NCBI RefSeq assembly: GCF_000661955.1
Contig: NZ_CP007597.1
Coordinates: forward strand, 1,419,605 to 1,483,604
Origin: Stenotrophomonas rhizophila
Lineage (GTDB): Bacteria; Pseudomonadota; Gammaproteobacteria; Xanthomonadales; Xanthomonadaceae
DNA: 64,000 nt
Direction of reading: 5' to 3'
Part shown: piece by piece, positions 22,781 to 54,124 of the stretch
Position numbering within the stretch: position 1 is the first letter of the stretch
Layout of the letters: each line of letters opens with the position of its first letter
Notes under the pieces: model-generated
Seen by the model: the letters and a program-made list of their open reading frames with translations, nothing else
Databases searched by the model: none
Told to the model about the DNA's origin: nothing
Program-made: the position numbers and the translations under genes

Positions 22781-22878
22781 CGGCACGGGTGGGGTTGCGG
22801 GGCACGCTGCAAGTACGTCCATGTAAGCTCCGTCGGCGCATCCATGCGCCTCAGGGCCCCGCAACCCCACCCGTGCCG
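22781..22878 (-). repeat. Variable-stem element 1
   Basis: Outer arms 22781-22803 and 22856-22878 pair perfectly (23 bp). The 52-base core, read on the minus strand, has CCTGAG, a hairpin around CATGGATG, GACGGAGC, a second small hairpin around CATGGA, and ends GCGT. The core differs from that of element 2 (23122-23227) at only two positions, and these are paired with each other. No protein is encoded. Confidence 0.85.
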
Positions 22879-23121
22879 ACGCTCGACAGTTGGCTGGTGC
22901 CCTCGTGTAAAGGCGGTAAGGCTAGGCAGGGCTAGGCAGAGCTAGGCAGGGCAAGGGCACTGGCAGTGCGATTGGGGTTGGGGCAAGGGGAAGGGGTCAG
23001 GTAGTGGGGAGGGTAGGGAGGTGCCGAGCAAGGCTCGGCACTACTCCTCCCACCCGTGCGGGCGCAGGAGGCTGCTCTGGTTCTTGACCTTGCTCTCAAT
23101 GCGGCACCGAGGGTGTGTCGG
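22879..23121. other. Non-coding spacer with decamer repeat between variable-stem elements 1 and 2
   Basis: About 240 bases. Three tandem decamers GCTAGGCAGG/A at 22921-22950 are followed by G-rich, low-complexity DNA. No credible gene on either strand. Confidence 0.6.
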
Positions 23122-23227
23122 GGGTCGGTGGGGGTGGGTTGGCAGGGCCCTGAGCCGCATGGATGCGGCGACGGAGCTTACATGGACGTACTTGCAGCGT
23201 GCCCTGCCAACCCACCCCCACCGACCC
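23122..23227 (+). repeat. Variable-stem element 2
   Basis: Arms 23122-23148 and 23201-23227 are a perfect 27-bp inverted repeat with no similarity to the arms of element 1, although the 52-base core is nearly identical. The core again has two CATGGA hairpins and ends GCGT. It is oriented opposite to element 1 and lies about 160 bases before prmB. Confidence 0.85.
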
Positions 23228-23351
23228 AGCCCGCCACCAACGAAGCGCCGCCTTTGAAGTTGACCTTGACCCTGCTCCAGGCCTCCAAACCCCCAAACCC
23301 CCAACCCAACCACTTTCGACTGCAACGGATGCCGGGGGGCATGGGGTCGCC

Positions 23352-23357
23352 TATAAT
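23352..23357 (+). promoter_or_regulatory. Probable -10 box of prmB
   Basis: Perfect TATAAT 28 bases before the prmB start codon. No clear -35 hexamer was found at 16-18 bases. Confidence 0.55.
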
Positions 23358-23385
23358 CGGGGGCCACACTGTCTGTTGCCTTGCC

Positions 23386-24315
23386 ATGACTGCCGAAACG
23401 GCCGCCGAACTTCACACGATCATCGACCTGATCCGCTACGGCACCAGCCGTTTCAATGCCGCAGGCCTCACCTTCGGGCACAGCTACGACAACGCCCTGG
23501 ACGAAGCCACCCAGCTCGTCCTGCACAGCCTGCACCTGCCGCATGACCTCGGCCCCGCCTACGGCGCCGCCCGCGTCACCACGCCTGAAAAGGCCGAGGT
23601 GCTGGCCCTGTTCGAGCGTCGCATCAACGAACGCCTCCCCGCCGCCTACCTAACCGGCGAAGCCTGGTTTGCCGGCCTCAGCTTCAAGAGTGACAGCCGC
23701 GCCCTCGTCCCGCGCTCGCCCATCGCCGAACTCATCGAAACCGGCTTCGAACCCTGGCTGGCCGGCCGCGACGTCCATCGCGCCCTCGACCTCTGCACCG
23801 GCTCGGGCTGCATCGCCATCGCCATCGGCCACTACTACCCCAACTGGGAAGTGGACGGCGTCGACCTCAGCGACGATGCCCTGGCCCTCGCGCATGAGAA
23901 CAAAGAACGCCTCCAGGCGCACAACGTCACCCTGATCAAGTCCGACCTGTTCAACGGCCTCACCGGCCGCCACTACGACCTGATCGTCACCAACCCGCCC
24001 TACGTCACCAACGACGAAACCGATGCCCTGCCGCAGGAGTATTCCTACGAGCCGGACATGGGCCTGCGGGCCGGCCCCGACGGCCTCGACCTCGTCCTCA
24101 AGATCCTGCGCGACGCCCCGCTGCACCTCAGCGAAGATGGCCTGCTGATCTGCGAAGTAGGCGAGTCCGAACAGCATCTGATCAAGCTCCTGCCCGAAGT
24201 CGACTTTGCCTGGATCGAATTCAAGGTTGGCCAGATGGGCATCTTCGCCGTCGAATGCCGTGAGCTCATCGCCCACAGCGCGCGCATCACCGAACTGGCA
24301 GCGCAGCGGCCGTGA
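23386..24315 (+). CDS. prmB: Ribosomal protein L3 glutamine methyltransferase PrmB
   Basis: 309 residues from the ATG of [13 protein letters not shown]-binding motif [15 protein letters not shown] and the catalytic NPPY of N5-glutamine methyltransferases ([11 protein letters not shown]) are present; the N-terminal helical domain and overall length fit PrmB better than PrmC. It methylates a glutamine of ribosomal protein L3. Its stop overlaps the GTG of aroC (GTGA). Confidence 0.95.
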
Positions 24316-25415
24316 GTTCCAACAGCTTCGGCACACTGCTGACCGTCACCACCTTCGGCGAATCGCATGGTCCGGCGATCGGCTGCGTGATCGATGGCTG
24401 CCCGCCGGGGCTGGAGATCAGCGCCGGTGAGTTCGACCACGACCTGCAGCGTCGCGCCACCGGCAAGAGCCGGCACACCTCCGCGCGCCGCGAAGCCGAC
24501 GACGTCGAGATCCTGTCCGGCGTCTACGAAGGCCGCACCACCGGCACCCCCATCGCGCTGCTGATCCGCAACACCGACCAGCGCAGCAAGGATTACACCG
24601 CCATCGCCCAGCAGTTCCGCCCGGGCCATGCCGACTACAGCTACTGGCAGAAGTACGGCATCCGCGACCCGCGCGGTGGCGGCCGCTCGTCCGCGCGCGA
24701 AACCACCATGCGCGTGGCCGCCGGCGTCATCGCCAAGAAGTGGCTGCAGCAGCGCCATGGCGTGACCGTGCGGGGCTACCTGTCCCAGCTGGGCGCGATC
24801 ACCCCCACCGGGCACGACTGGTCGGCGGTGGAAGACAACCCGTTCTTCTGGCCGGTGGCCGAACAGGTGCCCGCGCTGGAGAGCTACATGGACGCGCTGC
24901 GCAAGTCCGGCGACTCGGTCGGCGCCCGCGTCAACGTGGTCGCCGACGGCGTGCCGCCGGGGTGGGGCGAGCCCATCTACGGCAAGCTCGACGGTGAACT
25001 GGCCGCCGCGCTGATGAGCATCAACGCCGTCAAGGGCGTGGAGATCGGCGACGGCTTCGCCAGCGCTGCCCAGCTGGGCACCGAACACCGTGACCTGATC
25101 ACCCCGCAGGGCTTTGCCAGCAACCATGCCGGCGGCATTCTCGGTGGCATCTCCACCGGCCAGCAGGTCACCGCCTCGATTGTGCTCAAGCCCACCTCCA
25201 GCCTGCGCCTGCCCGGCGCCACGGTGGATGCCGACGGCAACGCGGTCGATGTGATCACCACCGGTCGCCACGACCCGTGCGTGGGCATCCGCGCCACCCC
25301 CATCGCCGAGGCGATGATGGCGCTGGTGCTGATGGACCAGGCGCTGCGCCACCGCGCGCAGTGCGGCGACGTGGGCACCATCACCCCGCGCATCCCCGGA
25401 TCGATCGATGGCTGA
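24312..25415 (+). CDS. aroC: Chorismate synthase
   Basis: 367 residues, full length. Last step of the shikimate pathway, making chorismate from EPSP with reduced FMN. Family signatures: [15 protein letters not shown] (residues 15-29), [20 protein letters not shown] and GGRSSARET, and the C-terminal [15 protein letters not shown]. It starts with GTG overlapping prmB and itself overlaps the next gene by eight bases, giving a prmB-aroC-dehydrogenase operon. Confidence 0.98.
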
Positions 25416-26463
25416 TCGCCGCCCCCGGGTCTGGGTCAGCCAGCCGCTGTTCGACGATGTGGTCGAACAGCTCGGGCAGCATGTCGACCTGGACATGACC
25501 GGCGAGGTCACCCGCTATACGCCACAGCAGTTGGCGGGGCGGCTGGCCGAGGTCGACGGCGCGCTGATCACCCTCAACGAGCGCATCGGCGCGGCCGAGA
25601 TCGCCAACGCCCCGCAGCTGCGCGCGATCGCCAACGTCGGCGTGGGCTACAACAACCTCGATGTGGAGGCGCTCAGCGCAGCCGGCATCCTGGCCAGCAA
25701 CACCCCGGACGTACTCACCGAAACCACCGCCGACCTTGGCTTCGCGCTGCTGATGGCCACCGCCCGTCGCATCACCGAGGCCGAGCGCTGGCTGCGTGAT
25801 GGGCAGTGGGGCCAGTGGTCGTTCCAGACCCTGCTCGGCGCGGACATCCACGGCAGCACGCTGGGCATCCTCGGCATGGGGCGCATCGGCCAGGGCATCG
25901 CCCGCCGCGGCGCGCTCGGGTTCGGCATGCGCGTGCTGTACCACAACCGCTCGCGGCTGCCCGACGCCACCGAAGCCGAAGTGGGCGCGCAGTACGTTGA
26001 CCTCGACACGCTGCTGGCCCAGGCCGACCACCTGGTACTGGTGCTGCCCTACAGCGCGTCCTCCCACCACATCATCGACGCCGGCGCATTGGCGAAGATG
26101 AAGCCGACCGCCACCCTGGTGAACATCGCCCGCGGCGGCATCGTCGACGAAGTGGCGCTGGCCGACGCGCTGGCCAACGGCCGCCTCGCCGCGGCTGGAC
26201 TGGACGTGTTCGAAGGCGAGCCCACGGTGCGCCCGGAACTGCTGGCCCTGCACAACATCGTGCTGACCCCGCATATCGGCAGCGCCAGCCAGGCCACGCG
26301 CCGGGCGATGGTGCAGCTGGCCGTGGACAACCTCACCGCCGCGCTGGGGCTGGGCCCGAACGCCGGCCACCCGCCGAGCGCGATCAACGCCGACGCCGTG
26401 GCCGCCGCCAAAACCGGCCGCGCGACCGTGGGCGGCAAAAATGTCGGCGACGCAAAACGATAG
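25408..26463 (+). CDS. D-2-hydroxyacid dehydrogenase (glyoxylate/hydroxypyruvate reductase type)
   Basis: 351 residues. NAD(P)-binding motif [13 protein letters not shown] (about residues 155-167), the substrate loop [11 protein letters not shown], and the catalytic Arg, Glu, His in [15 protein letters not shown] and TPHIGSAS. The pattern resembles GhrB/TkrA-like reductases of glyoxylate, hydroxypyruvate or 2-ketogluconate; the exact substrate is not resolved. The ATG lies inside the end of aroC, so it is part of that operon. Three REP elements follow. Confidence 0.92.
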
Positions 26464-26498
26464 GGAACCTCCCCAGCCAACAGGCGAGGTTCCCGAAC

Positions 26499-26610
26499 CG
26501 GCAGGCACCGATCGTTGGTCGGCACGCACATTCACTATCCCGGTAGGTACCGATCGTTGATCGGTACACCCCTCCAAAAACACGGTAGGTACCGACCGTT
26601 GGTCGGTACA
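26499..26610. repeat. Three REP elements between the dehydrogenase and asd
   Basis: Copies at about 26499-26524, 26541-26567 and 26584-26610, each GGYACCGAYCGTTGRTCGG-like. The last two share a GGTAGGTACCGA head. They may limit read-through or stabilise the upstream mRNA. Confidence 0.85.
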
Positions 26611-26629
26611 CCCAACACGAGGTTCCCCC

Positions 26630-27655
26630 ATGAACAATCCAGATCGTCGTTTCCACGTCGCTGTCGTCGGTGCCACCGGCGCCGTTGGCGAAACCATGCT
26701 GTCCATCCTCGCCGAGCGCGACTTCCCGATCGCCTCGCTGAGCCTGCTCGCGTCCTCGCGCTCGGCCGGCGGTGAGATCGACTACCGCGGCGAAAAGATC
26801 AAGGTCCAGGACCTGGCCGACTTCGACCCCAAGGGCGTGGACATCGCGCTGTTCTCCGCCGGTGGCAGCGTGTCCAAGGAGTACGGCCCGAAGTTCGCCG
26901 CTGCCGGTGCGGTGGTGATCGACAACTCGTCGGCCTTCCGCTACGACGACGACGTGCCGCTGGTGGTGTCCGAAGTGAACCCGGACGCGCTGAAGAACCG
27001 CCCGCGCGGCATCATCGCCAACCCGAACTGCTCCACCATGCAGATGCTGGTGGCGCTGGCGCCGCTGCACCGCCAGTACGGCATCACGCGCATCAACGTG
27101 GCCACCTACCAGTCCGTGTCCGGTGGCGGTCGTTCCGCGCTGGAGGAACTGGGCAAGCAGACCGGCCAGCTGCTCAGCTTCCAGCAGATCGACCCGCAGC
27201 GCTTCCCGGTGCAGATCGCCTTCAACCTGATCCCGCACATCGACGACTTCCTGGAAAACGGCTTCACCAAGGAAGAAATGAAGCTGGTCTGGGAAACCAA
27301 GAAGATCCTGGGCGACGACAGCATCCTGGTGAACCCCACCGCGGTGCGCGTGCCGGTGTTCTACGGTCACTCCGAAGCGGTCACCATCGAAACCCGCGAC
27401 AAGGTCACCGTGGCGGCCGCGCGCGAACTGCTGTCGCGTTCGCCGGGCGTGGAAGTGGTGGACAAGCATGAAGCCGGCGGCTATCCGACCCCGGTGACGC
27501 ATGCGTCGGGCAACGATGCGGTGTATGTCGGCCGTATCCGCGAAGATCTCTCGCATCCGAACGGGCTGAACCTGTGGATCGTGTCGGACAACATCCGCAA
27601 GGGCGCCGCGCTCAATGCGGTGCAGTTGGCCGAACTGGTCGCCGCCGAAGGCTGA
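26630..27655 (+). CDS. asd: Aspartate-semialdehyde dehydrogenase
   Basis: 341 residues. NADP motif [11 protein letters not shown] (residues 11-21) and active-site Cys134 in NPNCSTMQM. It reduces aspartyl phosphate to the semialdehyde for lysine/diaminopimelate, threonine and methionine synthesis. It precedes fimV, truA and trpF, a gene order also found in pseudomonads. GAGG is placed ten bases before the ATG. Confidence 0.97.
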
Positions 27656-27742
27656 TCGTGCAACGTCGGTGGCATGGGGATGCCATCGGCGGCTGCAATT
27701 CAACCATCGCCGATCACGGGGGGAGCCGCTATATTGGCCGCC

Positions 27743-29749
27743 ATGAACAACCGGACCCGGGGCGCCCTGCGCCCGCTCAAGTATGTGTCCACACTGCTGC
27801 TGGCCCTGGCCAGCAGCTCCGCCATGGCCTTGGGCCTGGGCGATATCCGGGTGCTGTCCAAGCCTGGCCAGCCGCTGCTGGCCGAAATACCGGTGATCTC
27901 GGCCGACCCGGCCGAGCTGGAAAACCTGCGGGTGGCGCTGGCCTCACCCGGCACCTTTGCCCGGGTCGGGCTGGAAGCACCGGCAGGCCTGGTCAGTGAA
28001 CTGCAGTTCGAACTGACCCGCAATGCGCAGGGCAGGGCGGTGGTGCGGGTCAGCACCCAGACCCCCGTCACCACCCCGTCGCTGAATTTCCTGATCGAAG
28101 CCGACTGGGGCCAGGGGCGCCTGGTCCGCGAATACTCGGCACTGGTCGATGCACCCAACAGTGCGCTGGCCGTGGCCGAACCGGAGATCGTCGCGCCGGC
28201 CGGCGCGATGTCCAACGCCATCGTGCGTGAGCCGGCACCGGCGACCGCGCCTGCGCCCACGGTAGAGGCCAGACCGGCCCGCACGGCCGCGCAGCCGCCA
28301 CGCACCGCTCCATCGCGCAGCGCAGCGCCGGCACCGGCAAGCGCCGCCGGCGGCGTCACCGTGCAACGTGGCCAGACCCTGTCCCAGATCGCCGCCGCGG
28401 TGGCCCGCGAACAGGGCATCAACCGCAACCAGGCGATGGTCGCGCTGCTGCGCGCCAACCCGGAGGCCTTCATCCGCGGCAACGTCAACCTGCTCAAGCA
28501 GGGCGCGGTGCTGCGCAGCCCCACCGACACGACCACGCCGATCGACGCCAGTGAAGCGGCCGCGATCGTGCGCGAGCACGCCGCACAATGGCGGCAATCC
28601 CGCGCGGCCATCCCGCAGCCGGCCAGCAGCGGCGTTGCCGCCAGCCCGGGCCCGGTCGCCAAGCCGGCAGCAGCGGCGGCGGCAGTGGCCAGTGGCGCGC
28701 GCCTGGAGATCGCACCGGCGGTCGCCGCCACCGATAACAATGCAGGCACAACCACCGGCACCGCCGCCGGCAGTGAGGGCGACATGCTGGGCAACGAACA
28801 ACTGCGTCAGGCCAAGGAAGATGTCGCCACGCGCGACGCCGAGATCCAGGAGCTGCGCAGCCGCGTGGCCGACCTGGAAAAGCTGCAGAAGCAGCAGCAG
28901 TCGCTGATCGCGATGAAGGACAGCGACCTGGCCGCCGCGCAGCAGCGCCTGGGCCAGGCCCCGGCCACGCGTGAGGCCGGCGGTAGCGGCTGGTACTGGC
29001 TGGGCCTGGTGGTGCTGTTGCTGGTAGTGGGCGGGTGGGCCGTGGCCCGCCGTCGCAAACCGTCGCCGTTGCCGCCGCTGCGCCGCGACGGCCTGGATGC
29101 CACCGCGCTGGCCGCCGCCGTGCCTGCCGCCGATTACATCGACGAGCTGGCCGCCCAGCAGGACGATGCGCTGGATGCCCGCCTGGATGAAGCACGCGAC
29201 CAGGCCAATGAAATACGCGACGAACCCGCCGAACACTACGCCGATGGCCTGCGCCGCGAGCCTGTGTTCACGCTGGAGCCGCGCCCGGGGCACACCGTGG
29301 CCGGCAGCGATGCAGTGCACCCCGAAGGCGACGACACCGCGCCGGACGGGGAGCAGGTGCCCCCAGCGACCGCTGCCGTGGATGCGGACACGGACATGGT
29401 CGACGTGTACACCCCGCCGGCGCATGCGCTGGAAGCCGCGGCACAGCCGTCGTTCCGCGGCGTCTTCGAGTTTCCCGCCGATGGCGACGCGGTTGCCGTC
29501 GGCGCGGAAGAGGCGGCTGACGCCGATGCCGATGCTTCCGCCGAGGCAGGCATCGAAGCCCCATTCGAGGCCACCGACAACAGTGGTCATGTCCTGGCCA
29601 CCCCTGGCCGCGACCGGCTGGAACTGGCCATCGCCTACCTGGACCTCGGCGACGCCGAAACCGCGCGCACGCTGCTGCAGGAAGTCGCCGTTGCGGCAGA
29701 CCCGCACAGCCAGGCGCAGGCCCGCGAACTGCTGGCGCGGCTGGGATGA
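27743..29749 (+). CDS. fimV: FimV/HubP-family polar peptidoglycan-binding membrane protein
   Basis: 668 residues. Signal peptide (LLLALASSSAMA), FimV N-terminal domain (GLGDIRVLSKPGQPLLAEI onward, about residues 28-140), Pro/Ala-rich linker, LysM-like domain at about 205-260 (TVQRGQTLSQIAAAVAREQG), coiled coil near 365-400, one membrane segment (WLGLVVLLLVVGGWAV, about 417-433), an acidic cytoplasmic region and a C-terminal TPR-like FimV tail (LELAIAYLDLGDAETARTLL). Relatives organise the cell pole and support type IV pilus twitching. A TATATT at 27730-27735 lies only seven bases before the ATG and no Shine-Dalgarno is seen, so the mRNA may be leaderless. Its stop overlaps the next ATG. Confidence 0.9.
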   Translation: MNNRTRGALRPLKYVSTLLLALASSSAMALGLGDIRVLSKPGQPLLAEIPVISADPAELENLRVALASPGTFARVGLEAPAGLVSELQFELTRNAQGRAVVRVSTQTPVTTPSLNFLIEADWGQGRLVREYSALVDAPNSALAVAEPEIVAPAGAMSNAIVREPAPATAPAPTVEARPARTAAQPPRTAPSRSAAPAPASAAGGVTVQRGQTLSQIAAAVAREQGINRNQAMVALLRANPEAFIRGNVNLLKQGAVLRSPTDTTTPIDASEAAAIVREHAAQWRQSRAAIPQPASSGVAASPGPVAKPAAAAAAVASGARLEIAPAVAATDNNAGTTTGTAAGSEGDMLGNEQLRQAKEDVATRDAEIQELRSRVADLEKLQKQQQSLIAMKDSDLAAAQQRLGQAPATREAGGSGWYWLGLVVLLLVVGGWAVARRRKPSPLPPLRRDGLDATALAAAVPAADYIDELAAQQDDALDARLDEARDQANEIRDEPAEHYADGLRREPVFTLEPRPGHTVAGSDAVHPEGDDTAPDGEQVPPATAAVDADTDMVDVYTPPAHALEAAAQPSFRGVFEFPADGDAVAVGAEEAADADADASAEAGIEAPFEATDNSGHVLATPGRDRLELAIAYLDLGDAETARTLLQEVAVAADPHSQAQARELLARLG

Positions 29750-30126
29750 CCAGCCCCGTCTCGCCTTCGCCGCGCGAGCGCCGGCTGGATTACGTGGAGT
29801 TCGCCTCCACCGACCCGGCCGCCAGCCGCCGCTTCTTCTCGGCGGTGTTCGGCTGGACGTTCGTGGATTACGGCCCGGACTACACCGCCTTCGACGATGG
29901 CCGCCTGCAGGGCGGCTTCTTCCGCGGCAGCCCGGCCACCACCGCCGCGGGCGCCGCCTTGCTGGTGATCTACGCCGACGACCTGGCCCCGGTGGCCGAG
30001 GCGGTGGCCGCCCAGGGTGGGCAGGTGGTCAAGCCCGTGTTTTCCTTTCCCGGGGGCAGCCGCTTCCAGTTCGTCGAACCCGGCGGCAACGAACTTGCCG
30101 TGTGGTCCGAGCGCGATCCGGCCTGA
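29746..30126 (+). CDS. VOC-family (glyoxalase-like) protein
   Basis: 126 residues forming one vicinal-oxygen-chelate fold: a beta-alpha-beta half beginning RLDYVEFASTDPAASRRFFSAVFGW and a second ending RFQFVEPGGNELAVWSE, with the terminal Glu that often binds metal. Family members are small dioxygenases, isomerases or antibiotic-binding proteins; the role here is unknown. The ATG overlaps the fimV stop (ATGA), placing it inside the fimV-truA-trpF operon. Confidence 0.88.
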   Translation: MTSPVSPSPRERRLDYVEFASTDPAASRRFFSAVFGWTFVDYGPDYTAFDDGRLQGGFFRGSPATTAAGAALLVIYADDLAPVAEAVAAQGGQVVKPVFSFPGGSRFQFVEPGGNELAVWSERDPA

Positions 30127-30174
30127 TGCCCCGACCGGCCCTGGCCGGTTCTTACCGACTTACAGAGGTTGACC

Positions 30175-30948
30175 ATGCGCTACGCAATGGGCGTGGAATA
30201 CGATGGCAGTGAATTCAAGGGCTGGCAGCAGCTGGGCGAGAGCGGTCGTCCCAGCGTGCAGGCCAGTCTGCAGCAGGCGCTGTCCTCGGTGGCCGATGCG
30301 CCCATCAAGGTGATGTGTGCCGGGCGCACCGATGCCGGCGTGCACGGGCACTGCCAGGTGGTGCATTTCGACACCGACGTCGTCCGCAACCTGCGCGGCT
30401 GGACCCTGGGCACGACCACCCGCCTGCCGCCCGCCATCGCGGTGCGCTGGTGCCAGCCGGTGGCCGATGATTTCCATGCGCGCTTCTCCGCCCGCGCCCG
30501 GCGCTATCGCTACCGCCTGCTCAACCGCCAGGTGCGCCCGGCGCTGAACCGGCAGAGCCTGAGCTGGGAACGGCGGCCGCTGGATGCCGCGCTGATGCAC
30601 GCGGCGGCGCAGGCATTGCTGGGCGAAAACGACTTCAGTGCCTTCCGCAGCGTCAATTGCGAGGCCCTGCATGCCCGCCGCGAGCTGCAGGCGATCAGTG
30701 TGACCCGCGATGGCGAGGTGCTGGAGGTCTGTGTTCAGGCCAATGCATTCCTTCATCACATGGTGCGCAATATCGTCGGTTCATTGATCCTGGTCGGGTG
30801 CGGGGACAAGCCGGTGTCGTGGCTGGGCGAGCTGCTGGCCGGAAAGGACCGCACCGTGGCCGGGCCGACCGCACCGCCGCAGGGTTTGGTGTTCGTTGGA
30901 CCCCTGTACCCCGACAACTGGCAACTGCCCGCCGAGGTGACTCTATGA
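30175..30948 (+). CDS. truA: tRNA pseudouridine(38-40) synthase TruA
   Basis: 257 residues from ATG 30175, with AGAGG six bases upstream; the TTG at 30169 is less well placed. The catalytic Asp is in [10 protein letters not shown] (about residues 50-59) and the RYRYRLLNR motif follows. It isomerises uridines 38-40 in tRNA anticodon arms. Its TGA overlaps the ATG of trpF. Confidence 0.96.
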
Positions 30949-31601
30949 GCCGCTCTTTCTATCGCACCCGTATCAAGTTCTGCGGCATGACCCGCGCCGG
31001 CGACGTGCGCCTGGCCGGGGAGCTGGGCGTGGATGCCGTCGGCTTCATCTTCGCCCGCGAGAGCAAGCGCCGCGTGGCGCCGGCCGAAGCCCGTGCGATG
31101 CGCCAGGCGATCGCGCCGATGGTGGACGTGGTGGCCCTGTTCCGTGACAACAGCAAGGAAGAGGTGCGCGAAGTGCTGCGCACGGTGCGGCCCACCCTGC
31201 TGCAGTTCCATGGCGAGGAAGACGAGTCGTTCTGCCGCAGCTTCAACATGCCCTACCTCAAGGCCGTGGCGATGGGGGGCCGCGAGGACGTCAACGCGCG
31301 CCAGCTGCAGCTGCGGTACCCCAGCGCCGCCGGCTTCCTGTTCGACAGCCACGCCCCCGGCGGCGGCGGTGGCACCGGCGTGGCCTTCGACTGGACCCGC
31401 CTGCCCACCGGCCTGCATCGGCCGTTCCTGCTGGCCGGCGGGATCACCCCGGACAACGTGTTCGACGCGATCGTGGCCACGCTGCCGTGGGGCGTGGACG
31501 TATCCAGCGGGATCGAATCCGAGCCGGGCATCAAGGACGGCTACAAGATGCGCAAGTTCGTCGAAGAAGTCCGTCGCGCCGACTGCCACGAGGCCGACTG
31601 A
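30945..31601 (+). CDS. trpF: Phosphoribosylanthranilate isomerase
   Basis: 218 residues. TIM-barrel enzyme of tryptophan synthesis; catalytic Cys in IKFCGMTR (about residue 13) and Asp in [15 protein letters not shown], with [10 protein letters not shown] and the terminal [16 protein letters not shown] phosphate-binding segments. It is coupled to truA by an ATGA overlap. The rest of the trp branch (trpB, trpA) is about 11 kb downstream, beyond the stress-gene block. Two REP elements follow the stop. Confidence 0.97.
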
Positions 31602-31609
31602 GGCCGGTG

Positions 31610-34579: not shown

Positions 34580-34594
34580 GCCCCACTGCCGGCG

Positions 34595-42977: not shown

Positions 42978-44191
<1,214 letters not shown>

Positions 44192-44195
<4 letters not shown>

Positions 44196-44881: not shown

Positions 44882-44882
44882 A

Positions 44883-45695: not shown

Positions 45696-45743
45696 TCAAG
45701 CGGCGCCCTCGCTCTCCGATCCGCATACGTGAAACTGTGCAGA

Positions 45744-45849
45744 GGCAGGCGGGCAGCCGCGCCCGGGACCGTTGGGCGCCATGGATGGCGCCCACGAGCC
45801 CCCAGGGATGGGTTTACGTGCGTGTCCCGGGTGCGGCTGCCCGCCTGCC
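45744..45849 (+). repeat. Variable-stem element 3
   Basis: Arms 45744-45768 and 45825-45849 pair at 24 of 25 positions. The 56-base core holds a 9-bp hairpin GGGCGCCAT/ATGGCGCCC around GG, GAGCCCCC, a CAGGGATGGG hairpin and GCGTG. It is the most diverged member of the family seen here, and lies between trpA and accD. Confidence 0.8.
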
Positions 45850-46058
45850 TCCCGCGACACGACCAAGGCGCTGGTGTTGCCGTGAGAGCATCGGAATCCC
45901 GGCCGGAGACCGTCGTCGCCCGCTCCTAAACATACGTCACAGCACGGTTTTACCGTCCGCCGCCGCACCCCGCAGGGGGTGCACGGGTGGGGAGGGCCTG
46001 AGCTAGACTGTCCGCCTTTGCGGCCTTCGGGCCGCCCTGAACGGAAGTAGCATCCCGC
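45850..46058 (+). promoter_or_regulatory. accD leader with UUCG-capped hairpin
   Basis: No gene seen. A TAGACT at about 46004-46009 is a possible -10. Just after it, GCGGCC-TTCG-GGCCGC (46020-46035) makes a very stable tetraloop hairpin in the leader, and GGAAG (46043-46047) is the ribosome site. The hairpin may tune accD translation. Confidence 0.5.
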
Positions 46059-46942
<884 letters not shown>

Positions 46943-46943
<1 letters not shown>

Positions 46944-48307
46944 TGGGTGCGCGCCGGTATTTCGGGACCGACGGCATCCGTGGCCGCGTCGGCCAAGGCG
47001 TGATCTCCGCCGATTTCGTGCTGCGCCTGGGCAATGCGCTCGGCCGCGTACTGACCGAACGCAATGGCCACCGCCCCGGGCACCGCCCGGTGGTGGTGAT
47101 CGGCAAGGACACGCGCATTTCCGGCTACATGTTCGAAGCCGCGCTGGAAGCGGGCCTGGTGGCCGGCGGTGTGGACGTGCAGCTGCTCGGCCCGATGCCG
47201 ACCCCGGCCGTCGCGTTCCTCACCCGTACCCTGGGCGCCGATGCCGGCATCGTCATCAGTGCCTCGCACAACCCGCATTACGACAACGGCATCAAGTTCT
47301 TCTCCGCCGATGGCGAGAAGCTCGACGACGCCACCGAACTGGCCCTGGAAGCAGCGCTGGACGGCGATTTCACCACCGCTGAATCCGACCGCCTCGGCAA
47401 GGCCATGCGCGCGCGCGACGCGGTGGGCCGCTACATCGAATTCTGCAAGGCCAGCGTGCCGCGCAGCTTCGACCTGCGCGGGCTCAAGATCGTGCTCGAC
47501 TGTGCGCACGGCGCCACCTACCACATCGCCCCGCTGCTGTTCCGCGAGCTGGGCGCGGAGGTGGTCACCATCGGTGCCGAGCCCAACGGGGTGAACATCA
47601 ACGATGGCGTCGGCTCGATGCACATCGACAACCTCGCCAACAAAGTACGTGAGGTCGGTGCAGATCTGGGCATCGCCTTCGACGGCGATGGCGACCGCGT
47701 GCTGATGGCCGACGACCAGGGCAACCCGGTCGACGGCGACGACCTTCTGTACGTGCTGGCGGCGTCCTGGCAGGGCAATGGTCGCCTGCGCGGTCCGGTG
47801 GTCGGCACGCTGATGACCAACTTCGGTCTGGAGCAGGCGCTGGAGCGCCTTGGCCTGCCGTTCGTGCGCAGCAACGTGGGCGATCGCTATGTGCACCAGG
47901 CACTGGTGGAAGGCGGCGGCGTGCTCGGTGGCGAAGCCTCCGGCCACCTGCTGTGCCTGGACCGTGCCACCACCGGCGATGCCATCGTCAGCGCGCTGCA
48001 GGTGCTGGAAGTGCTGCGTCGCGAAGGCCGCACCCTGCGCGCCTCGCTGCAGGACCTGAGCCGGGTGCCGCAGAAGACCGTGAACGTGCGGTTGGGCGAC
48101 GTCTCGGCCAAGGCCATCGTGCAGGCCGATACCGTGCAGGCCGCGCTGGTCGCCGCGCAGCAGGCGGTGAAGGGCCGCGGCCGCGCGTTCCTGCGTCCGT
48201 CCGGCACCGAGCCGGTGGTGCGTGTCACCGTCGAGGCCGATACCGCCGAGCTGATGCAGTCCACGCTGGACAACCTGTCCGGTGCGGTGAAGGCGGCGGC
48301 CGCCTGA
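46943..48307 (+). CDS. glmM: Phosphoglucosamine mutase
   Basis: 454 residues. Active-site phosphoserine is Ser108 in [13 protein letters not shown]; the metal loop is DGDGDRVLM and the phosphate-binding loop is [11 protein letters not shown]. Makes glucosamine-1-phosphate for peptidoglycan and lipopolysaccharide. The ATG overlaps the accD stop (TGATG), so both are coupled. Four REP elements follow. Confidence 0.97.
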
Positions 48308-48321
48308 GAACGGCCACCGCG

Positions 48322-48520
48322 CGGTAGAGCCGACCGTTGGTCGGCTTCTCCACCGTCGGTGGGCTGCGTTGAGCAGTCACGTAGAGCCGGGCTCTGCCCG
48401 GCTGAAGCGCCTCCAACGCCAGCGCATGCAGGATGCAAGCCGGGCAGAGCCCGGCGCTACGCGGCTGCGCAAGAGCCAGCGCATACCGGATGCGGGCCGC
48501 GCCAGAGCCCGGCGGTACCC
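48322..48520. repeat. Cluster of REP elements after glmM
   Basis: Copies at about 48322-48346 (GTAGAGCCGACCGTTGGTCGG), 48381-48402 (GTAGAGCCGGGCTCTGCCCGG), inverse 48439-48460, and a partial copy near 48503-48520. They fill the gap between the convergent glmM and deacetylase genes and probably help end both transcripts. Confidence 0.85.
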
Positions 48521-48525
48521 GGGCC

Positions 48526-49380
48526 TTACGGCCCCGGCACCATCTTCTTCTGCTTCGCCTTGAAGCGGTTGAACACCGGCGCGATCAACGGGTTGTAACT
48601 CCACGCGATGCGCTTGCGCAGCCAGCTGGCCGGGCGGTTGCGGATCGCGAACCGGTAGATGTGCTCCGGATTGCCGCCCACCACGTTGCGCCCGAACGGG
48701 TGCGTGGTGTGCAGGTACTTGAAGCCCTGTGCACGCGCGATCGGCAGGTAGTCCGCATCGAAATCGCCGTAGGGCCAGCACAGCGTGTCCGACACCTCGC
48801 CCAACTGCTGCTGCAGCACCAGCCGCGCCATCGAGAGGTCGCGGGTGATGCCCTCGCACTTCTGCTCGCGGGTGATGTCCTGCTTCAACCAGCGCGTATG
48901 CGAGTGGGTGTGGCAATGCACTTCGAAGGTGCCGGCCGCGATCATCGCGCGCGCCTCGCTCCAGCGCATCATCACCTCGTCGGTACGGTCGTCACGCAGG
49001 ATCGCCGCTTCGCACCCGCGATGGTCCGGGGTGGGCGGCAGCGTCACCCCCGGTTGCCCCGCATGCGGGCGCACCGGGCCTTCGCCCATCCAGCCGGTCA
49101 CCACGAACACCACCGCGTGCATGCCGTACTTGAGCAGGATCGGGTGCGCGTACACCCAGTTGTCCAGGTAGCCGTCGTCGAAGGTGATCACGATCGACTT
49201 GCGCGGGACCGGCTTGCCGGCCAGGAAGTCGGCGTACTGCGCCAGCGTCAGCGAGGTCCAGCCGTTGTTGGCCAACCACGCGATCTGGCTTTCGAAATTC
49301 TCCGGCGACACCGTGATCATCCCCGGTGACGGCGATACGTGGTGGTGCATCAATACCGGCACGGATCTAGCGTTGGCCAT
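48526..49380 (-). CDS. Polysaccharide deacetylase (NodB-homology) protein
   Basis: 284 residues. NodB-fold motifs: PVLMHHHVSP at the start, TFDDGYLDNW (metal-binding Asp pair, residues about 65-74), and HCHTHSHT (metal histidines). No signal peptide is seen, so it may act in the cytoplasm or at the inner face, on a lipid-linked or nucleotide sugar. Its start overlaps the stop of the glycosyltransferase by 14 bases; with the sulfatase it forms a three-gene surface-glycan unit. Confidence 0.92.
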   Translation of the reverse strand: MANARSVPVLMHHHVSPSPGMITVSPENFESQIAWLANNGWTSLTLAQYADFLAGKPVPRKSIVITFDDGYLDNWVYAHPILLKYGMHAVVFVVTGWMGEGPVRPHAGQPGVTLPPTPDHRGCEAAILRDDRTDEVMMRWSEARAMIAAGTFEVHCHTHSHTRWLKQDITREQKCEGITRDLSMARLVLQQQLGEVSDTLCWPYGDFDADYLPIARAQGFKYLHTTHPFGRNVVGGNPEHIYRFAIRNRPASWLRKRIAWSYNPLIAPVFNRFKAKQKKMVPGP

Positions 49381-50533
49381 GGCCCAGTTCCTTCAACCAC
49401 TGGTGGTAATAGTGTTCGGTCGCTTCGGTATGCCCCGACGGGGTGAAGCGCTGCGCGCTGCGCATCCATTCCCAACCGGCGCGCCCCATGCGCCGACGCT
49501 GCGCGGCGTCGTCAACCAGGGTCTGCAACGCCTGGGTCAGGGTCGCCTGGTCGCCTAGTGGGGCGAGAATAGCATTGCTGCCTTCCAGCACCATTTCCGG
49601 CACCCCGCCCACGCGCGTGGCCACCACCGGCACGCCCACGTGCGCCGCCTCCAGGAACACCGTACCGGCCGCTTCCTTATGCGTGGCCAGCGCGAAGATG
49701 TCGAAACCGGCCATCAGGCGGCACGCACCGTGCCGGTAGCCGAGCAGGTGCACCTGCGCGGCCACGCCCAGTTCGCTGCGCAGCGCCTCCAGCCGGCCCA
49801 TCACCGGCTGGCCGTCACCGACAATCACCAGGTGCAGGTTGGGATGCTGGCGGCACAGTGGCGCAATCGCGCGCAGCAGGTCCACGTGGCCCTTGGGTTC
49901 GCGCAGCACCGCCACGCAGCCCACCACGATCTGGTCGTCGGCAAAGCCCAGCTCGCGGCGCACCTCGGCACGGGTGTCCTGGACGCATTGCCACGGATCT
50001 TCGCAGTCGATCTTCGACCACTCCGGCGGCACCGCGATCGGCGGCACGATGCCCACGTGGCGGTCGTCCACCCCGCGCGCCACCAGCAGCTGCTTGACGA
50101 AGCTGCTGACCGTCATCACCCGGTGCGGCAGGCCGGTATAGGTCAGCAGCGAGTTGACCGGGCTCATCAGGTGGCGTGAGCGCACCACCAGCGGCGTGCG
50201 CCCCAGCCGCGCGCCGGCGGCGGCGATCAGGCTGTCGCGGCGGCTGGTGGTATTGACCACGTCGAAGCCATGGCGGCGCACCAGCCGCCGCACCGACCAG
50301 ATCCCGCGCACCAGACGCAGCAGGCCGCCCATTTTCAGGTCATGGACGGTGAACCCGGCCTCGCGCGCGATGGTGCCCAGGCGTGCACCGGGCTGGCACA
50401 GCAGCGACACGTCATGGCCACGCTCGCGCATGGCCAGCATGTGGCGGTAGATGTAGATCTCCTGCCCGCCGAATCCTTTGGCGGCTTCCGTGTGCAGGAT
50501 CTTCAGGGGCGGGGTAGTGGAAGGCATGTTCAT
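49367..50533 (-). CDS. Family 4-type glycosyltransferase
   Basis: 388 residues from the ATG of MNMPSTTPPL. GT-B fold: N-terminal GGQEIYIYRHMLAMRERGHDV and C-terminal EAAHVGVPVVATRVGGVPEM, the GT4 E-x7-E region. Similar to heptose/glucose transferases of lipopolysaccharide core or O-chain synthesis. The sugar and acceptor are unknown. It sits between the deacetylase and the sulfatase, 29 bases after the sulfatase stop. Confidence 0.9.
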   Translation of the reverse strand: MNMPSTTPPLKILHTEAAKGFGGQEIYIYRHMLAMRERGHDVSLLCQPGARLGTIAREAGFTVHDLKMGGLLRLVRGIWSVRRLVRRHGFDVVNTTSRRDSLIAAAGARLGRTPLVVRSRHLMSPVNSLLTYTGLPHRVMTVSSFVKQLLVARGVDDRHVGIVPPIAVPPEWSKIDCEDPWQCVQDTRAEVRRELGFADDQIVVGCVAVLREPKGHVDLLRAIAPLCRQHPNLHLVIVGDGQPVMGRLEALRSELGVAAQVHLLGYRHGACRLMAGFDIFALATHKEAAGTVFLEAAHVGVPVVATRVGGVPEMVLEGSNAILAPLGDQATLTQALQTLVDDAAQRRRMGRAGWEWMRSAQRFTPSGHTEATEHYYHQWLKELGHGQR

Positions 50534-50562
50534 CGATGAACGTTCCAGGCGGGGCGCGGCCG

Positions 50563-52428
50563 TCATGGCCGGCGGAAATGGGTGAGCGCTTCCCATGCCG
50601 CGCGTACCGCAGCGGCATCGGGTTGCTGGTCGGCCACCGGCAGGTACTGGCGGTCCAGGGTGGTGGCGTTGCCGAACTTGTCGAACACGTAGGTGCGCTC
50701 GCCATGGCGGATGCCGCGCTGCGACCAGCTTTCCACCAGCAGGGCACGGTCGGCCGGCACGGGGTCGAACAGGTCGCGGCCGGTGCTGAAATCGGCCAGC
50801 GCGTTCTCGCACCCCAGGCCATGGCGCATCAGGGTAGGTACCCAGTCTTCGTGGCTGGTGTTGCCGGTGTGCCGGGCGGCCGCACGGCCGGGCCAATGCA
50901 GCACGAACGGCACGCGCATCTGGTAATCGGAGAAGTTGCCGTTGTGGCCCCAGTAGTTCAGGCCGAGGTCGTTGAATTCCTCGGCGTGGTCACCGGTGAC
51001 CAGCACGATGGTGTTGTCGGCCTGGCCGCTGTCGCGCAGGGTCTGCATCAGCTCGCCCAGCAAGCCATCGGCGTAGTGCACGGCGGTGCGGTAGCGGTTG
51101 CGCTCGGGCACCGGCACGTGATCCTCGTCCAACGCGAGGAAGTCGATATGGCTCGCCATCGGGGTGGCCAGCGGCGGGTAGTCCTTGGGCAGGTGGTAGG
51201 GCGCGTGGGTGCTGTCCAGGAACGCGAACCCGAACCAGTGACCCTTGCCGGGCCGGGCGATGTCGGCGCGCAGCGCATCGATGATGTGTCGATCGCGCGC
51301 GGCCACCGGCAGTGCCGACGGCGCGGTGTGCAGCTGGTTGCGCACCTGGGCAAACACGGTGCGGTCGAATTCCGGGCTGTGCAGCGGCGCGCTGCCATAC
51401 AGGTGCAGGTCGTAACCCTGCTGCTGGAGCACGTCGAACAGCTGCGAGCCGCGCTGCTCGCTGAGCATGCTGTCCCAGTAGCCGCCGGGCAGCCCGTACA
51501 GCAGGCCGAACAGGCCGTAGCGGGTGGCATTGCCGCTGCTGTAGTGGGCGGTGAACTGCTCGGACTGCGCGGCCAGTGCCCAGGTGTTGGGCATGGTGGT
51601 GGCGTCCAGCGCGTCGTGGCGCAGCGATTCCATCACCACCACCAGCACATTGGGCTGCACGTTGCTCTGGCAGCGCAACGGATGCAGCGGGTACTGCAGC
51701 TGGCTGTGGCGCGGGTCGGGCAGGCTGGCCTGGGGCAGGCTGTGCACGCCGAGCCGGTGCATGTGGCGTTTGGCGGTGATCGGCTGCGCCCAGGGCAGGT
51801 ACGCCCACTGACTGGTCACCGCACGTTCGCCGCGGGCATCGTAATAGGCGGTGGCCACCTGGCCGCAGGTCATCAGCACCAGGCCGGCGGCCCAGGCCAG
51901 CAGCAGCGGGCGGCGCCGCGCCGCGCCGGGGATGAGCCGCCAGCAGGCCCAGGCCAGCAGCACTTCGGCCAGCACCACGGCGGCCAGTACGGCCCCGGCC
52001 TGCAGCCAGGTCTGCCAGGACAGTGCAACCTGGTCCTGCAGTGCGCCGCCGAACACCATGTTGAGCACCATGGCATTGAGGTGGAAGCGATACAGGGCGA
52101 ACACCTTGGCATCCACCAGCAGCAGGCACAGCCACAGGGTCTGCAGCACCACCGCGCTCACCAGCAGGCCGCGCGGTGCGCGCAGGCCCAGCCCAAGCAG
52201 CAGCGGCAGCAGCGATACCACCGCGCCCAGCGCCAGGAAGTGGCCGGGGAGGGCAACGCTCAGGTAGGCCAGCCCAAGCCCGCCACCGGGGTTGTCGCCC
52301 AGCGGGGTGTTGCCCAGTGCGATGAGAATCGCGGCGCCGGCATTGAGGGCGGTGAACAGGCTCAGCCAGGCCAGGCGCTGCCAGCGCGTGGACGGGGAGA
52401 GGGCATCAGCGGGCAGGAAAAGGGGCAT
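50563..52428 (-). CDS. YejM/LapC-like inner-membrane sulfatase-family protein
   Basis: 621 residues from the ATG of MPLFLPADAL. Five hydrophobic segments (about residues 18-36, 45-72, 80-105, 130-155, 167-190) fit the DUF3413 membrane domain, followed by a periplasmic sulfatase/phosphatase-like domain (VLVVVMESLRHDALD, SHIDFLALDED, VLVTGDHAEEF, GHNGNFSDY). The arrangement is that of YejM/PbgA/LapC, which regulates lipopolysaccharide synthesis in enterics; here it could instead modify a glycan, given its operon partners. An extension to 52569 adds non-family sequence. First gene of the minus-strand unit. Confidence 0.88.
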   Translation of the reverse strand: MPLFLPADALSPSTRWQRLAWLSLFTALNAGAAILIALGNTPLGDNPGGGLGLAYLSVALPGHFLALGAVVSLLPLLLGLGLRAPRGLLVSAVVLQTLWLCLLLVDAKVFALYRFHLNAMVLNMVFGGALQDQVALSWQTWLQAGAVLAAVVLAEVLLAWACWRLIPGAARRRPLLLAWAAGLVLMTCGQVATAYYDARGERAVTSQWAYLPWAQPITAKRHMHRLGVHSLPQASLPDPRHSQLQYPLHPLRCQSNVQPNVLVVVMESLRHDALDATTMPNTWALAAQSEQFTAHYSSGNATRYGLFGLLYGLPGGYWDSMLSEQRGSQLFDVLQQQGYDLHLYGSAPLHSPEFDRTVFAQVRNQLHTAPSALPVAARDRHIIDALRADIARPGKGHWFGFAFLDSTHAPYHLPKDYPPLATPMASHIDFLALDEDHVPVPERNRYRTAVHYADGLLGELMQTLRDSGQADNTIVLVTGDHAEEFNDLGLNYWGHNGNFSDYQMRVPFVLHWPGRAAARHTGNTSHEDWVPTLMRHGLGCENALADFSTGRDLFDPVPADRALLVESWSQRGIRHGERTYVFDKFGNATTLDRQYLPVADQQPDAAAVRAAWEALTHFRRP

Positions 52429-52626
52429 GGAGCGGGTCGGCGGCGCAGTGAAAGGGGACGGGGGACGTGGCGGCGGCTGCGTCGGCACCCTGCTTATGGC
52501 AACAGGGCGGGCGCATTGTATCGGTTTGTATCTTTGTGTCGGCAGTGCCGGGTGGCGGATCTGGCACAATGTTCAGCCGGGCCAGTGAGATGGCCTGTGA
52601 CCCATCCGAACAAGCCAGGAACCGCT

Positions 52627-53562
52627 GTGAGCCAGATCCCGACCCTCGACATCACCCGTTTCGACAGTGACCGCGACGCCTTCGTTGCCGAGCTGGGCGC
52701 GGCCTACCGCGAATGGGGATTCGCAGGTATCCGCAACCACGGCATCCCGCAGGCCGACATCGACGCCGCCTACGAGGTGTTCAAGGCCTTCTTCGCACTG
52801 CCGGAAGAGACCAAGCGCCAGTACCACGTGCCGGGCAGCGGCGGGGCGCGCGGCTACACGGCCTTCGGCGTGGAGACGGCCAAGGGCTCGCAGCACTTCG
52901 ACCTGAAGGAGTTCTGGCACATCGGCCGCGAGATTCCGGACGACTCGAAGTACCGTGACGTGATGGCGCCGAACCTGTGGCCGTCCGAGGTGCCGAACTT
53001 CCGCGAGCGTGGCTATGCGCTGTATCAGGCGCTGGACCAGTTGGGGTCGCGGGTGCTGTCGGCGCTGGCGCTGCACATCGGGCTGCCGGAAGATTTCTTC
53101 GCGGACAAGACCAACAACGGCAATTCGATCCTGCGCCCGATCCACTACCCGCCGATCACCGCCGAGAACATTCCGAACGTGCGCGCTGGTGCACACGGCG
53201 ACATCAACTTCATCACGTTGCTGGTGGGGGCGAGCGCGGCGGGGCTGGAGGTGCAGTCGCACGAGGGCAAGTGGGTGCCGTTCACGTCGGACGCGGACAC
53301 GATCGTGGTGAACATTGGCGACATGCTGCAGCGTCTGACCAACCATGTGTATCCGTCGACGATCCACCGGGTGGTCAATCCCCCGGGCGAGCAGGCGCGC
53401 CAGCCGCGCTATTCGGTGCCGTTCTTCCTGCATCCGAATCCGGACTTCCTGATCGATGTGCTGCCGACCTGCATCACGCCGGAGAACCCGAGCCGCTATC
53501 CGGAGCCGATTACGGCGCATGGTTTCCTGGAAGAGCGTTTGCGCGAGATCAAGCTGAAATGA
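52627..53562 (+). CDS. 2-oxoglutarate/Fe(II)-dependent oxygenase, isopenicillin N synthase-like
   Basis: 311 residues from a GTG with AGGA six bases upstream. The DIOX N-terminal region (LDITRFDSDRDAFVAELGAA, GFAGIRNHGIP) and the double-stranded beta-helix with iron ligands His and Asp in GAHGDINF, distal His in STIHRVV, and the cosubstrate-binding RYSVPFF. No substrate is evident and no biosynthetic partners lie nearby. The very long upstream open frame to 50536 is antisense to the sulfatase and is rejected. A good terminator follows. Confidence 0.93.
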   Translation: MSQIPTLDITRFDSDRDAFVAELGAAYREWGFAGIRNHGIPQADIDAAYEVFKAFFALPEETKRQYHVPGSGGARGYTAFGVETAKGSQHFDLKEFWHIGREIPDDSKYRDVMAPNLWPSEVPNFRERGYALYQALDQLGSRVLSALALHIGLPEDFFADKTNNGNSILRPIHYPPITAENIPNVRAGAHGDINFITLLVGASAAGLEVQSHEGKWVPFTSDADTIVVNIGDMLQRLTNHVYPSTIHRVVNPPGEQARQPRYSVPFFLHPNPDFLIDVLPTCITPENPSRYPEPITAHGFLEERLREIKLK

Positions 53563-53570
53563 TGTTGGGA

Positions 53571-53603
53571 GGAGGGCCGCCGGAAGGCGGCCTTCTTCTT
53601 TTT
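53571..53603 (+). terminator. Rho-independent terminator of the oxygenase gene
   Basis: Stem GGCCGCC/GGCGGCC with GGAA loop, extended by G-U pairs, followed by TTCTTCTTTTT. Eight bases after the stop codon. Confidence 0.88.
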
Positions 53604-53614
53604 AACGTCAAATT

Positions 53615-53642
53615 CAACGGCAACGGCAACGGCAACGGCAAC
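53615..53642 (+). repeat. Hexamer repeat (CAACGG, four units)
   Basis: Four tandem CAACGG units and a partial fifth, directly before variable-stem element 4. Confidence 0.85.
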
Positions 53643-53668
53643 TGCCGGCTGGTCGGTTGCTGTCGGTT

Positions 53669-53778
53669 GGTCGGGCGCTGCCATGCCCCGCCGGGACACG
53701 CCGTGAACCCATCCATGGGGGCTCTTAGGCAACATCCATGTTGCCTAAGGTCCCGGCGGGGCATGGCAGCGCCCGACC
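53669..53778 (-). repeat. Variable-stem element 4
   Basis: Arms 53669-53696 and 53751-53778 are a perfect 28-bp inverted repeat. The 54-base core, read on the minus strand, has a hairpin GGCAACAT/ATGTTGCC around GG, then GAGCCCCCATGGATGGG and ends GGCGTG. It differs from element 5's core at only two positions, which pair with each other. Confidence 0.88.
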
Positions 53779-53890
53779 TCACAGATTGCTGCGACCGGAG
53801 CCGAGGGCAGGGGCAGGCTTGCTGCTGGCGCTTTGGGTCTGCGGATGGGTGAGGCTGCGGGTGATTGCTGATGGGTGATGGGGTAGGGAT
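53779..53890. other. Non-coding spacer between element 4 and the GGGGAT array
   Basis: No credible gene. Low-complexity sequence with GATGGG and GGCAGG runs leading into the hexamer array. Confidence 0.5.
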
Positions 53891-53956
53891 GGGGATGGGG
53901 ATGGGGATGGGGATGGGGATGGGGATGGGGATGGGGATGGGGATGGGGATGGGGAT
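53891..53956 (+). repeat. GGGGAT tandem array, 11 perfect units
   Basis: Eleven uninterrupted GGGGAT units preceded by one AGGGAT. With four or more G4 runs separated by AT it has strong G-quadruplex potential on the plus strand. It is likely to vary in length between strains. Confidence 0.95.
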
Positions 53957-53957
53957 G

Positions 53958-53983
53958 GGTAGGTGCTGACCGTTGGTCGGCAC
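53958..53983 (+). repeat. REP element
   Basis: GGTAGGTGCTGACC-GTT-GGTCGGCAC, the standard GTAG-headed palindrome, directly after the GGGGAT array. Confidence 0.85.
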
Positions 53984-54024
53984 GCTCCTTCGCCTTCCCG
54001 TGCGAAACGGCCAACTGTCATGGG

Positions 54025-54124
54025 CGGGCGCGGGCGGGGCGGCGGGACCTTAGGCGACATGGATGTCGCCTAAGAGCCCCCATGGATGGGTTCACGGCGT
54101 GTCCCGCCGCCCCGCCCGCGCCCG
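54025..54124 (+). repeat. Variable-stem element 5
   Basis: Arms 54025-54047 and 54102-54124 are a perfect 23-bp inverted repeat of only G and C plus one A/T pair. The 54-base core is that of element 4 with one compensatory base-pair change in the first hairpin (GGCGACAT/ATGTCGCC). It is oriented opposite to element 4, 246 bases away, and lies 133 bases before tpiA. Confidence 0.88.

Follow-up and report, generated by a model that had tools for sequence, protein, structure and literature searches.

How are the two long arms of an intergenic inverted repeat kept matched to each other when the arms differ from one copy of the repeat to the next? The question is raised by five elements in a 64,000-nt stretch of the Stenotrophomonas rhizophila chromosome (hereafter the window; the elements are copies 1–5), each laid out as an arm, a core of 52 nt (54 nt in copy 3) and the inverted arm. 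Five such elements had been proposed by a sequence-only reading of the window, and all are present at the positions and on the strands it gave. We suggest that they are non-autonomous mobile repeats of the YPAL/RU-2 type, first described in Yersinia, which work as a folded sense single strand, the one carrying two GGA loops; as a whole we give this reading an even chance. We think it highly likely that this is a genuine family and that YPAL has the same core.

Structure and conservation of the core

All five copies fold far better than shuffled sequences (z -8.6 to -12.0), and for each copy none of 200 shuffles folded as well. The core is a three-way junction: hairpin 1, of about 10 bp, carries the loop ATGGAT and is followed by one A and a second hairpin, in which three plus three pairs close the loop ANGGAY and five unpaired bases lie on the return side; two further bases lead into the 3' arm. 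As the sequence-only reading had claimed, the cores differ within subtypes by paired changes, copies 1 and 2 by one swapped pair and copies 4 and 5 by one A-T/G-C pair. The constant 28-base length it gave to the GAGC...GCGTG segment does not extend to copy 3, which has one extra T there and also an extra base in hairpin 1. For a wider comparison we aligned 23 gapless cores, namely two window copies and 21 of the 28 loci from the class, which was identified as Gammaproteobacteria from record titles; the seven loci excluded were six with a 65-nt match, plus L160, from the genus of L152. In this alignment 95.3% of the cells are paired and both sides have changed in 17 of 22 core pairs. Covariation reaches 0.608, compared with 0.178 after shuffling, and sliding the partners gave no more than 0.114. 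Among the positions that never vary are those of the GGA in loop 2; a single core (L148) has GAA in loop 1. Together with the strand-biased arm mismatches described below, the covariation is strong evidence for a structured family whose fold is selected.

Some copies carry insertions in the loops. Multi-hairpin inserts of ~75–80 nt are found in loop 1 or loop 2 at L079, L093, L094, L113 and L118, with a variant in L104, and similar multi-hairpin inserts occur in two congeners (G013 and G017) at the oxygenase-tpiA site discussed below, one G017 copy having inserts in both loops. Wherever the junction was read, the insert comes after the ATGG of the loop. In two different copies an insertion sequence of the IS110 family (PF01548 and PF02371 in the L118 copy) starts at the same position of hairpin 2 (Table 1), so this insertion sequence may target the element.

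Relation to known repeats and RNAs

The Y. pestis RU-2/YPAL repeat is printed in Table 1b of Delihas 2007 (PMC2759123), and its centre is the same core: local identity is 45/52 with L162 and 47/56 with L152, both with score 35, where the maximum over 200 letter shuffles was 16. Extracts of PMC2759123 and PMC2229807 describe YPAL as a unit of ~168 bp with an internal inverted repeat of 7 contiguous bp. Those of PMC2229807, a review, add that YPAL is mobile, with filled and empty sites known and target duplications of 3–26 bp. By the same account its targets extend across or lie beside dyad symmetry, and it was proposed to affect upstream transcripts. Our element resembles YPAL in being intergenic, in having filled and empty sites (some of the absences here are losses) and in lying near gene 3' ends. 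It differs in its arms of about 27–49 bp, which are copy-specific and nearly perfect, in its divergent pairs and in a far wider range. A ~168-bp unit with fixed inverted repeats was not found in G278, a genome rich in copies: blastn similarity is mostly limited to ~62 bp there and the arms are copy-specific.

Ysr224 (Rfam RF02770) is the same core viewed on the other strand. Its 16 matches in the S. rhizophila genome all fall at places of the element and all on the opposite strand; they are sub-threshold, the best scoring 34 bits where the gathering score is 70. This family is listed in part of PMC9029176 among the most annotated bacterial small RNAs, and several expressed copies are reported for Y. 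ruckeri in PMC12112432. At gathering threshold Rfam returned only a tRNA, and permissive matches to microRNA families were rejected, as they look like chance matches to long hairpins. The sequence-only reading had left room for a described repeat with the same variable arms; the core was indeed described, as YPAL/RU-2 and Ysr224, while the variable arms were not found described. In the open-licence literature we found no account of a class-wide family, copy-specific arms, strand bias or paired changes, and literal core words returned unrelated subjects only, judged from the listing.

Other systems are less close. The REP, BIME and REPIN repeats, with RAYT, are likewise high-copy intergenic palindromes in inverted pairs, an arrangement that the element also shows (see below). 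REP sequences are 20–40 bp long with GTAG/CGTC tags; the element has neither this size nor these tags, and does not require a Y1 transposase. The TwoAYGGAY RNA (RF01731) resembles the element in its two AYGGAY hairpin loops, for which CsrA binding was proposed (PMC4333381, in part). RF01731 had no match in the S. rhizophila genome, a weak negative, since the same search matched no control genome either. Finally, R178, which an extract of PMC2718517 gives as a 101-bp Pseudomonas repeat, could be a relative.

Mismatches in the arms are strand-biased

Mismatches inside the arms were counted as read on the GGA-loop strand. Over all copies, the ratio of G.T to A.C was 46:2 in the S. rhizophila genome, 31:8 in relatives, 17:4 in the class sample and 156:19 at the named-genome loci among the matches listed. 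Because related copies inflate such counts, we corrected for kinship by grouping similar arms and retaining the best-paired copy of each group. The corrected ratio was 17:4 in the class sample (24 representatives; p 0.007) and 55:10 at the named-genome loci among the matches listed (61 representatives; p 1e-8); the 38 of these 61 that come from loci L167–L246 not titled Xanthomonadaceae gave 32:9. Corrected G.A to C.T ratios were 10:2, 29:2 and 22:2 in the same three sets. The mismatch types that are retained are the more stable ones in a single-stranded helix. A double-stranded cruciform, for which the mismatches would be symmetric, is therefore disfavoured. We conclude that the selected form is very likely one single strand, the one with the two GGA loops, and we lean towards this strand being DNA rather than RNA.

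Arm sequences and concerted change

Arm length is typical of the genome, about 27 bp in S. rhizophila and about 34 bp in G278. In S. rhizophila (65 copies) pairing stays at 0.83 or above to position 27, apart from position 24, which has frequent G.T and reaches 0.71, and falls to 0.38 at position 28. For G278, 39 stretches were fetched and the 30 copies passing a pattern and score filter were used: Watson-Crick pairing is 0.93–1.00 over the first 28 positions, apart from dips to 0.87 and 0.90, and drops to 0.63 at position 35 and 0.43 at position 36. Single arms in this genome are paired at up to 49/49 positions, that one lying 3 bp after a stop codon. Beyond position 5, identity between copies within the G278 arm is near-random (0.24–0.60). 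Between-copy identity in S. rhizophila runs from 0.3 to 0.97, so the arms are not random there. The genus Stenotrophomonas has loose G-rich arm themes, and a motif, roughly ACCRRCCAACTGTC, is common outside the 5' arm; the arms in the genus are thus not wholly independent.

The sequence-only reading was close on pairing and too strong on independence. It gave arms of 23, 27, 25, 28 and 23 bp for copies 1–5, perfect in four copies; the full ungapped arms are slightly longer (27, 27, 28, 29 and 27 nt) and near-perfect, with complementarity of 96, 100, 96, 100 and 96%. It also had the arms sharing no sequence between copies. In fact a GGGTGGG(G)TTG theme is common to copies 1 and 2 and a core-adjacent GGGAC/GTCCC to copies 3–5, and loose themes recur in many arms of the genome; what stands is that the arms look independent in most other genera, Xanthomonas excepted, which has two recurring arm types.

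Orthologous arms could be compared between the 2OG-Fe(II) oxygenase gene and tpiA, a site that was readable, with anchors within 1 kb, in 12 genomes of the genus. Of twelve stretches taken for this site, seven lacked the anchors and the interval of G024 was implausibly long. At the site itself G014 is without the element and a script found none in G008. Arms orthologous to those of copy 4 and carrying paired changes occur in G013, G019 and G002, and G023 has an orthologue of copy 5. Sixteen pairwise comparisons, which are non-independent, gave 330 unchanged pairs, 65 double changes from one Watson-Crick pair to another (40 transversions and 25 transitions), 25 single-side changes (10 involving G.T, 2 A.C and 13 other) and 1 otherwise. 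G000 and G013 differ by three double and zero single changes, the '+' copies of G011 and G009 by zero double and five single ones. A two-step path through wobble pairs should give mainly transitions and visible intermediates, and arm-to-arm copying fits the counts better. Members of a pair can share a core while differing from their orthologues, as in G011, G021 and copies 4 and 5; other genome pairs do not.

Family size and range

A covariance model was built from the five cores, each extended by 6 bp into both arms, as earlier exact patterns, with unsuitable spacing, had given no genome matches. The search with this model, which the sequence-only reading had proposed, makes the five part of a large family: it finds 94 places in the S. 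rhizophila genome at E<=1 and 90 at E<=0.01, degenerate and interrupted copies included. All 32 neighbouring pairs less than 700 bp apart are divergent, '-' then '+', with match starts 187–517 bp apart, and they involve 64 of the 90 places. Matches were found in 23 of 41 genomes when 40 relatives were added, and in 68 of 369 genomes (59 of 271 genera) of a Gammaproteobacteria sample; the class counts are lower bounds, because the filters were stricter and no more than 14 candidates were scored in any genome, and the model was built from the five window copies.

A pattern scan of named genomes yielded at least 120 loci. Genera among the matches listed are Stenotrophomonas, Xanthomonas, Lysobacter, Luteimonas, Microbulbifer, Cellvibrio, Marinobacter, Halopseudomonas, Rheinheimera, Oceanisphaera and Alcanivorax. 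Two-copy clusters among these matches are '-+' in 17 cases, '+-' in two and '--' in one, besides four larger clusters, one of them '++++'. Xanthomonas has alternating arrays of the element. A locus from a Saccharophagus metagenome-assembled genome (L175, 3106–3755) holds four head-to-tail copies with a period of about 180 bp, unlike the divergent pairs elsewhere.

Two long intervals were considered as autonomous versions and rejected. That of L077 encloses an ordinary long open reading frame, presumably AsmA-like. The one in L093 holds an IS3-type element (3358–4732, integrase core domains in its second open reading frame) between the members of a stretched '-,+' pair.

Occupied sites, empty sites and neighbouring genes

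The stretch with copies 1 and 2 (Table 1) lies between a gene beginning MFNRN... (-, start 22580) and another gene (+, 23386), which we take to be prmB. In six congeners (G002, G014, G019, G023, G021 and G017) it is replaced by 7–48 bp, with a left edge at 22582–22630. The stretch with copy 3 is replaced in three.

Gene context was tallied for 213 copies with rough home-made gene calls. Twenty copies lie inside called genes and the rest are intergenic. Within 250 bp on the 3' side of the element the neighbour is tail-facing in 107 cases and head-facing in 36; the corresponding numbers on the 5' side are 44 and 37 (p 0.003, with pair members non-independent). Because the 3' neighbours are mostly tail-facing, the mRNA of that gene usually represents the strand opposite to the selected one, which speaks against an ordinary function in the 3' untranslated region of an mRNA.

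Possible readings: mobile single strand or functional RNA

A mobile repeat working as a folded sense strand could operate as follows. A protein supplied in trans would recognise the core once it has folded in single-stranded DNA, which replication or the excision of a copy would expose. The arms would be kept matched by one arm templating the other, through hairpin-templated copying or repair, and only well-folded copies would spread. The most specific version, a mobile element spread across the class in which hairpin-primed or hairpin-templated copying on one DNA strand renews the arms from each other, is in our view improbable as it stands.

Several observations weigh against a mobile single strand. 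No mobilising enzyme was found. Y1 transposase was matched in 56 of the 68 element-bearing genomes and in 185 of 301 genomes without the element (p 0.001; genomes absent from the positives were counted as negative, in this and the csrA tally below, and a few positives were weak). Twelve of the 68 had no Y1 match, including G278 with its dozens of places and well-paired arms, and three congeners (G004, G007 and G024) match Y1 but lack the element; a Y1/RAYT transposase is not required. Viral contigs gave no exact pattern match, and plasmids, phages and E. coli no convincing full-core match (two full-length plasmid matches had 75% identity and E 0.3). No target-site duplication was seen by eye at the sites read, in genomes that are 81–92% identical and where losses confound the comparison. 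G013 has a single '+' copy at the site of copies 1 and 2, and one arm with a scrap of core is left at another site in G019, which looks like a deletion scar; some absences are therefore losses, and absence does not prove a pre-insertion state. After kinship correction the G.T to A.C ratios were 4:0 in S. rhizophila (14 representatives) and 8:3 in relatives (18), neither significant alone. Strand-biased mutation could add to the mismatch bias, though it would need to explain G.A besides G.T. Concerted change is known from one site in one genus, and conversion by another copy of the same theme could also yield it, likewise fitting better than a wobble path.

The alternative that survives best, one we regard as possible yet doubtful, is a functional RNA: a sense transcript with two CsrA/RsmA-type hairpins, dispersed copies of which would titrate or recruit CsrA/RsmA. 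The candidate loops read CANGGAYG, with the two GGA 23 nt apart in copy 5, and they present GGA in hairpin loops as CsrA/RsmA-binding RNAs do. At the N of CANGGA in loop 2 all four letters occur while GGA is constant, as in the CsrA consensus ANGGA, and hairpin 2 resembles the site RUACARGGAUGU obtained by systematic evolution of ligands by exponential enrichment (SELEX). Tolerance of mismatches on the GGA strand and the reported expression of Ysr224 in Y. ruckeri (PMC12112432, in part) would suit such an RNA. So would the distribution of csrA, matched in 63 of the 68 element-bearing genomes and, among near-complete genomes, in 56 of 57 with the element against 224 of 257 without (Fisher p 0.01); the difference weakens to p 0.06 when all genomes are counted, and small genomes are a confounder. 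Further, read-through from the 3'-side gene usually yields the other strand, all 16 Ysr224 matches in S. rhizophila are on that other strand, and a subfamily in which a ~77-nt insert breaks the loop-1 GGA has several copies.

It is unlikely that, as the sequence-only reading had considered, one arm is created at every insertion by copying the target flank in inverted orientation. Copy-specific arms, up to the 49/49 pairs next to a stop codon, would fit such fold-back capture, as would the dyad symmetry said in part of PMC2229807 to mark YPAL targets. However, arms within the genus share themes, and motifs outside the arms recur in Stenotrophomonas and Xanthomonas. Arms at one orthologous site also diverge in place by paired double changes. 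Among the absences read there was no pre-insertion site with one arm, the sole absence with one arm being the one that keeps a scrap of core.

We hold out little prospect for the element being an mRNA 3'-end hairpin, that is, a terminator or stabiliser. It does sit near gene 3' ends, and YPAL was proposed to affect upstream transcripts (PMC2229807, in part), but neither end of any window copy is followed by a T-run (judged by eye, no terminator scan being run), copy 4 lies beyond a T-run stem that itself looks like an intrinsic terminator, and the selected strand is usually opposite to that mRNA. Least probable of all is pure mutational upkeep, in which quasi-palindrome template switching perfects double-stranded palindromes with no selection on either strand: it would agree with the scarcity of intermediates and with double transversions being no rarer than double transitions, but a cruciform treats the strands alike while the mismatches are strongly strand-biased (a bias that, if not itself mutational, already refutes upkeep as the sole cause), and the core is present in 59 of 271 sampled genera.

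Positions and surroundings of the window copies

Positions are collected in Table 1. By Pfam, copy 3 lies between Trp_syntA (trpA) and Carboxyl_trans/Zn_ribbon_ACC (accD), copy 4 past the end of the 2OG-Fe(II) oxygenase gene and copy 5 upstream of tpiA; a uvrA-like identity for the gene left of copies 4 and 5 was rejected on the Pfam result.

Table 1. Element copies, the stretches that contain them, and insertion sequence junctions (window coordinates unless stated)
Feature	Position	Strand	Arms	Core	Remarks
Stretch with copies 1 and 2	22630..23313 (about 684 bp)				outer minisatellite, copy 1, spacer, copy 2, right flank
Copy 1	22777..22882	-	22777-22803 and 22856-22882 (27 nt, 96% complementary)	22804-22855 (52 nt)	left member of '-,+' pair; fold z -9.7
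Copy 2	23122..23227	+	23122-23148 and 23201-23227 (27 nt, 100%)	23149-23200 (52 nt)	right member of pair with copy 1; fold z -10.5
Stretch with copy 3	45696..45927 (about 232 bp)				replaced by 6-7 bp in G023, G019, G013
Copy 3	45742..45851	+	45742-45769 and 45824-45851 (28 nt, 96%)	45770-45823 (54 nt)	between trpA and accD
Copy 4	53669..53778	-	53669-53697 and 53750-53778 (29 nt, 100%)	53698-53749 (52 nt)	
Copy 5	54022..54127	+	54022-54048 and 54101-54127 (27 nt, 96%)	54049-54100 (52 nt)	
IS110-family junction, L113	about 3360 (locus coordinates)				
IS110-family junction, L118	about 3495 (locus coordinates)				

Other repeats occur at the same places. Hexamer-type minisatellites (GGGGAT, GAAGCCG-like, GGCATT), which are not the same from species to species, lie beside the elements or between them, at about 53885–53960 and 22690–22755 in the window and at about 58730–58830 of the joined G023 stretch. 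Short SMAG-like REP palindromes (GTGCCGACC..GGTCGGCAC) occupy the same intergenic spots as the element: at about 53963–53990 in the window, at the site of copies 4 and 5 in G002 and G017, and at the site of copy 3 in G002, where the element is absent.

Implications

The family links a Yersinia repeat and a Yersinia Rfam small RNA family to an element in 59 of 271 sampled genera. What is new, in our reading, is a wide, class-level variant of a YPAL-type mobile repeat with two unexpected properties, strand bias and paired arm changes. Should the CsrA reading hold, single genomes would carry many dual CsrA-type sites. To our knowledge no bacterial repeat propagates by arm-to-arm renewal of its stem; if this one does, such copying would give the stem its free sequence, set length and constant near-perfection. 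The family offers a natural experiment on the upkeep of matched arms in long palindromes, in which strand bias and concerted double changes are measurable in public genomes.

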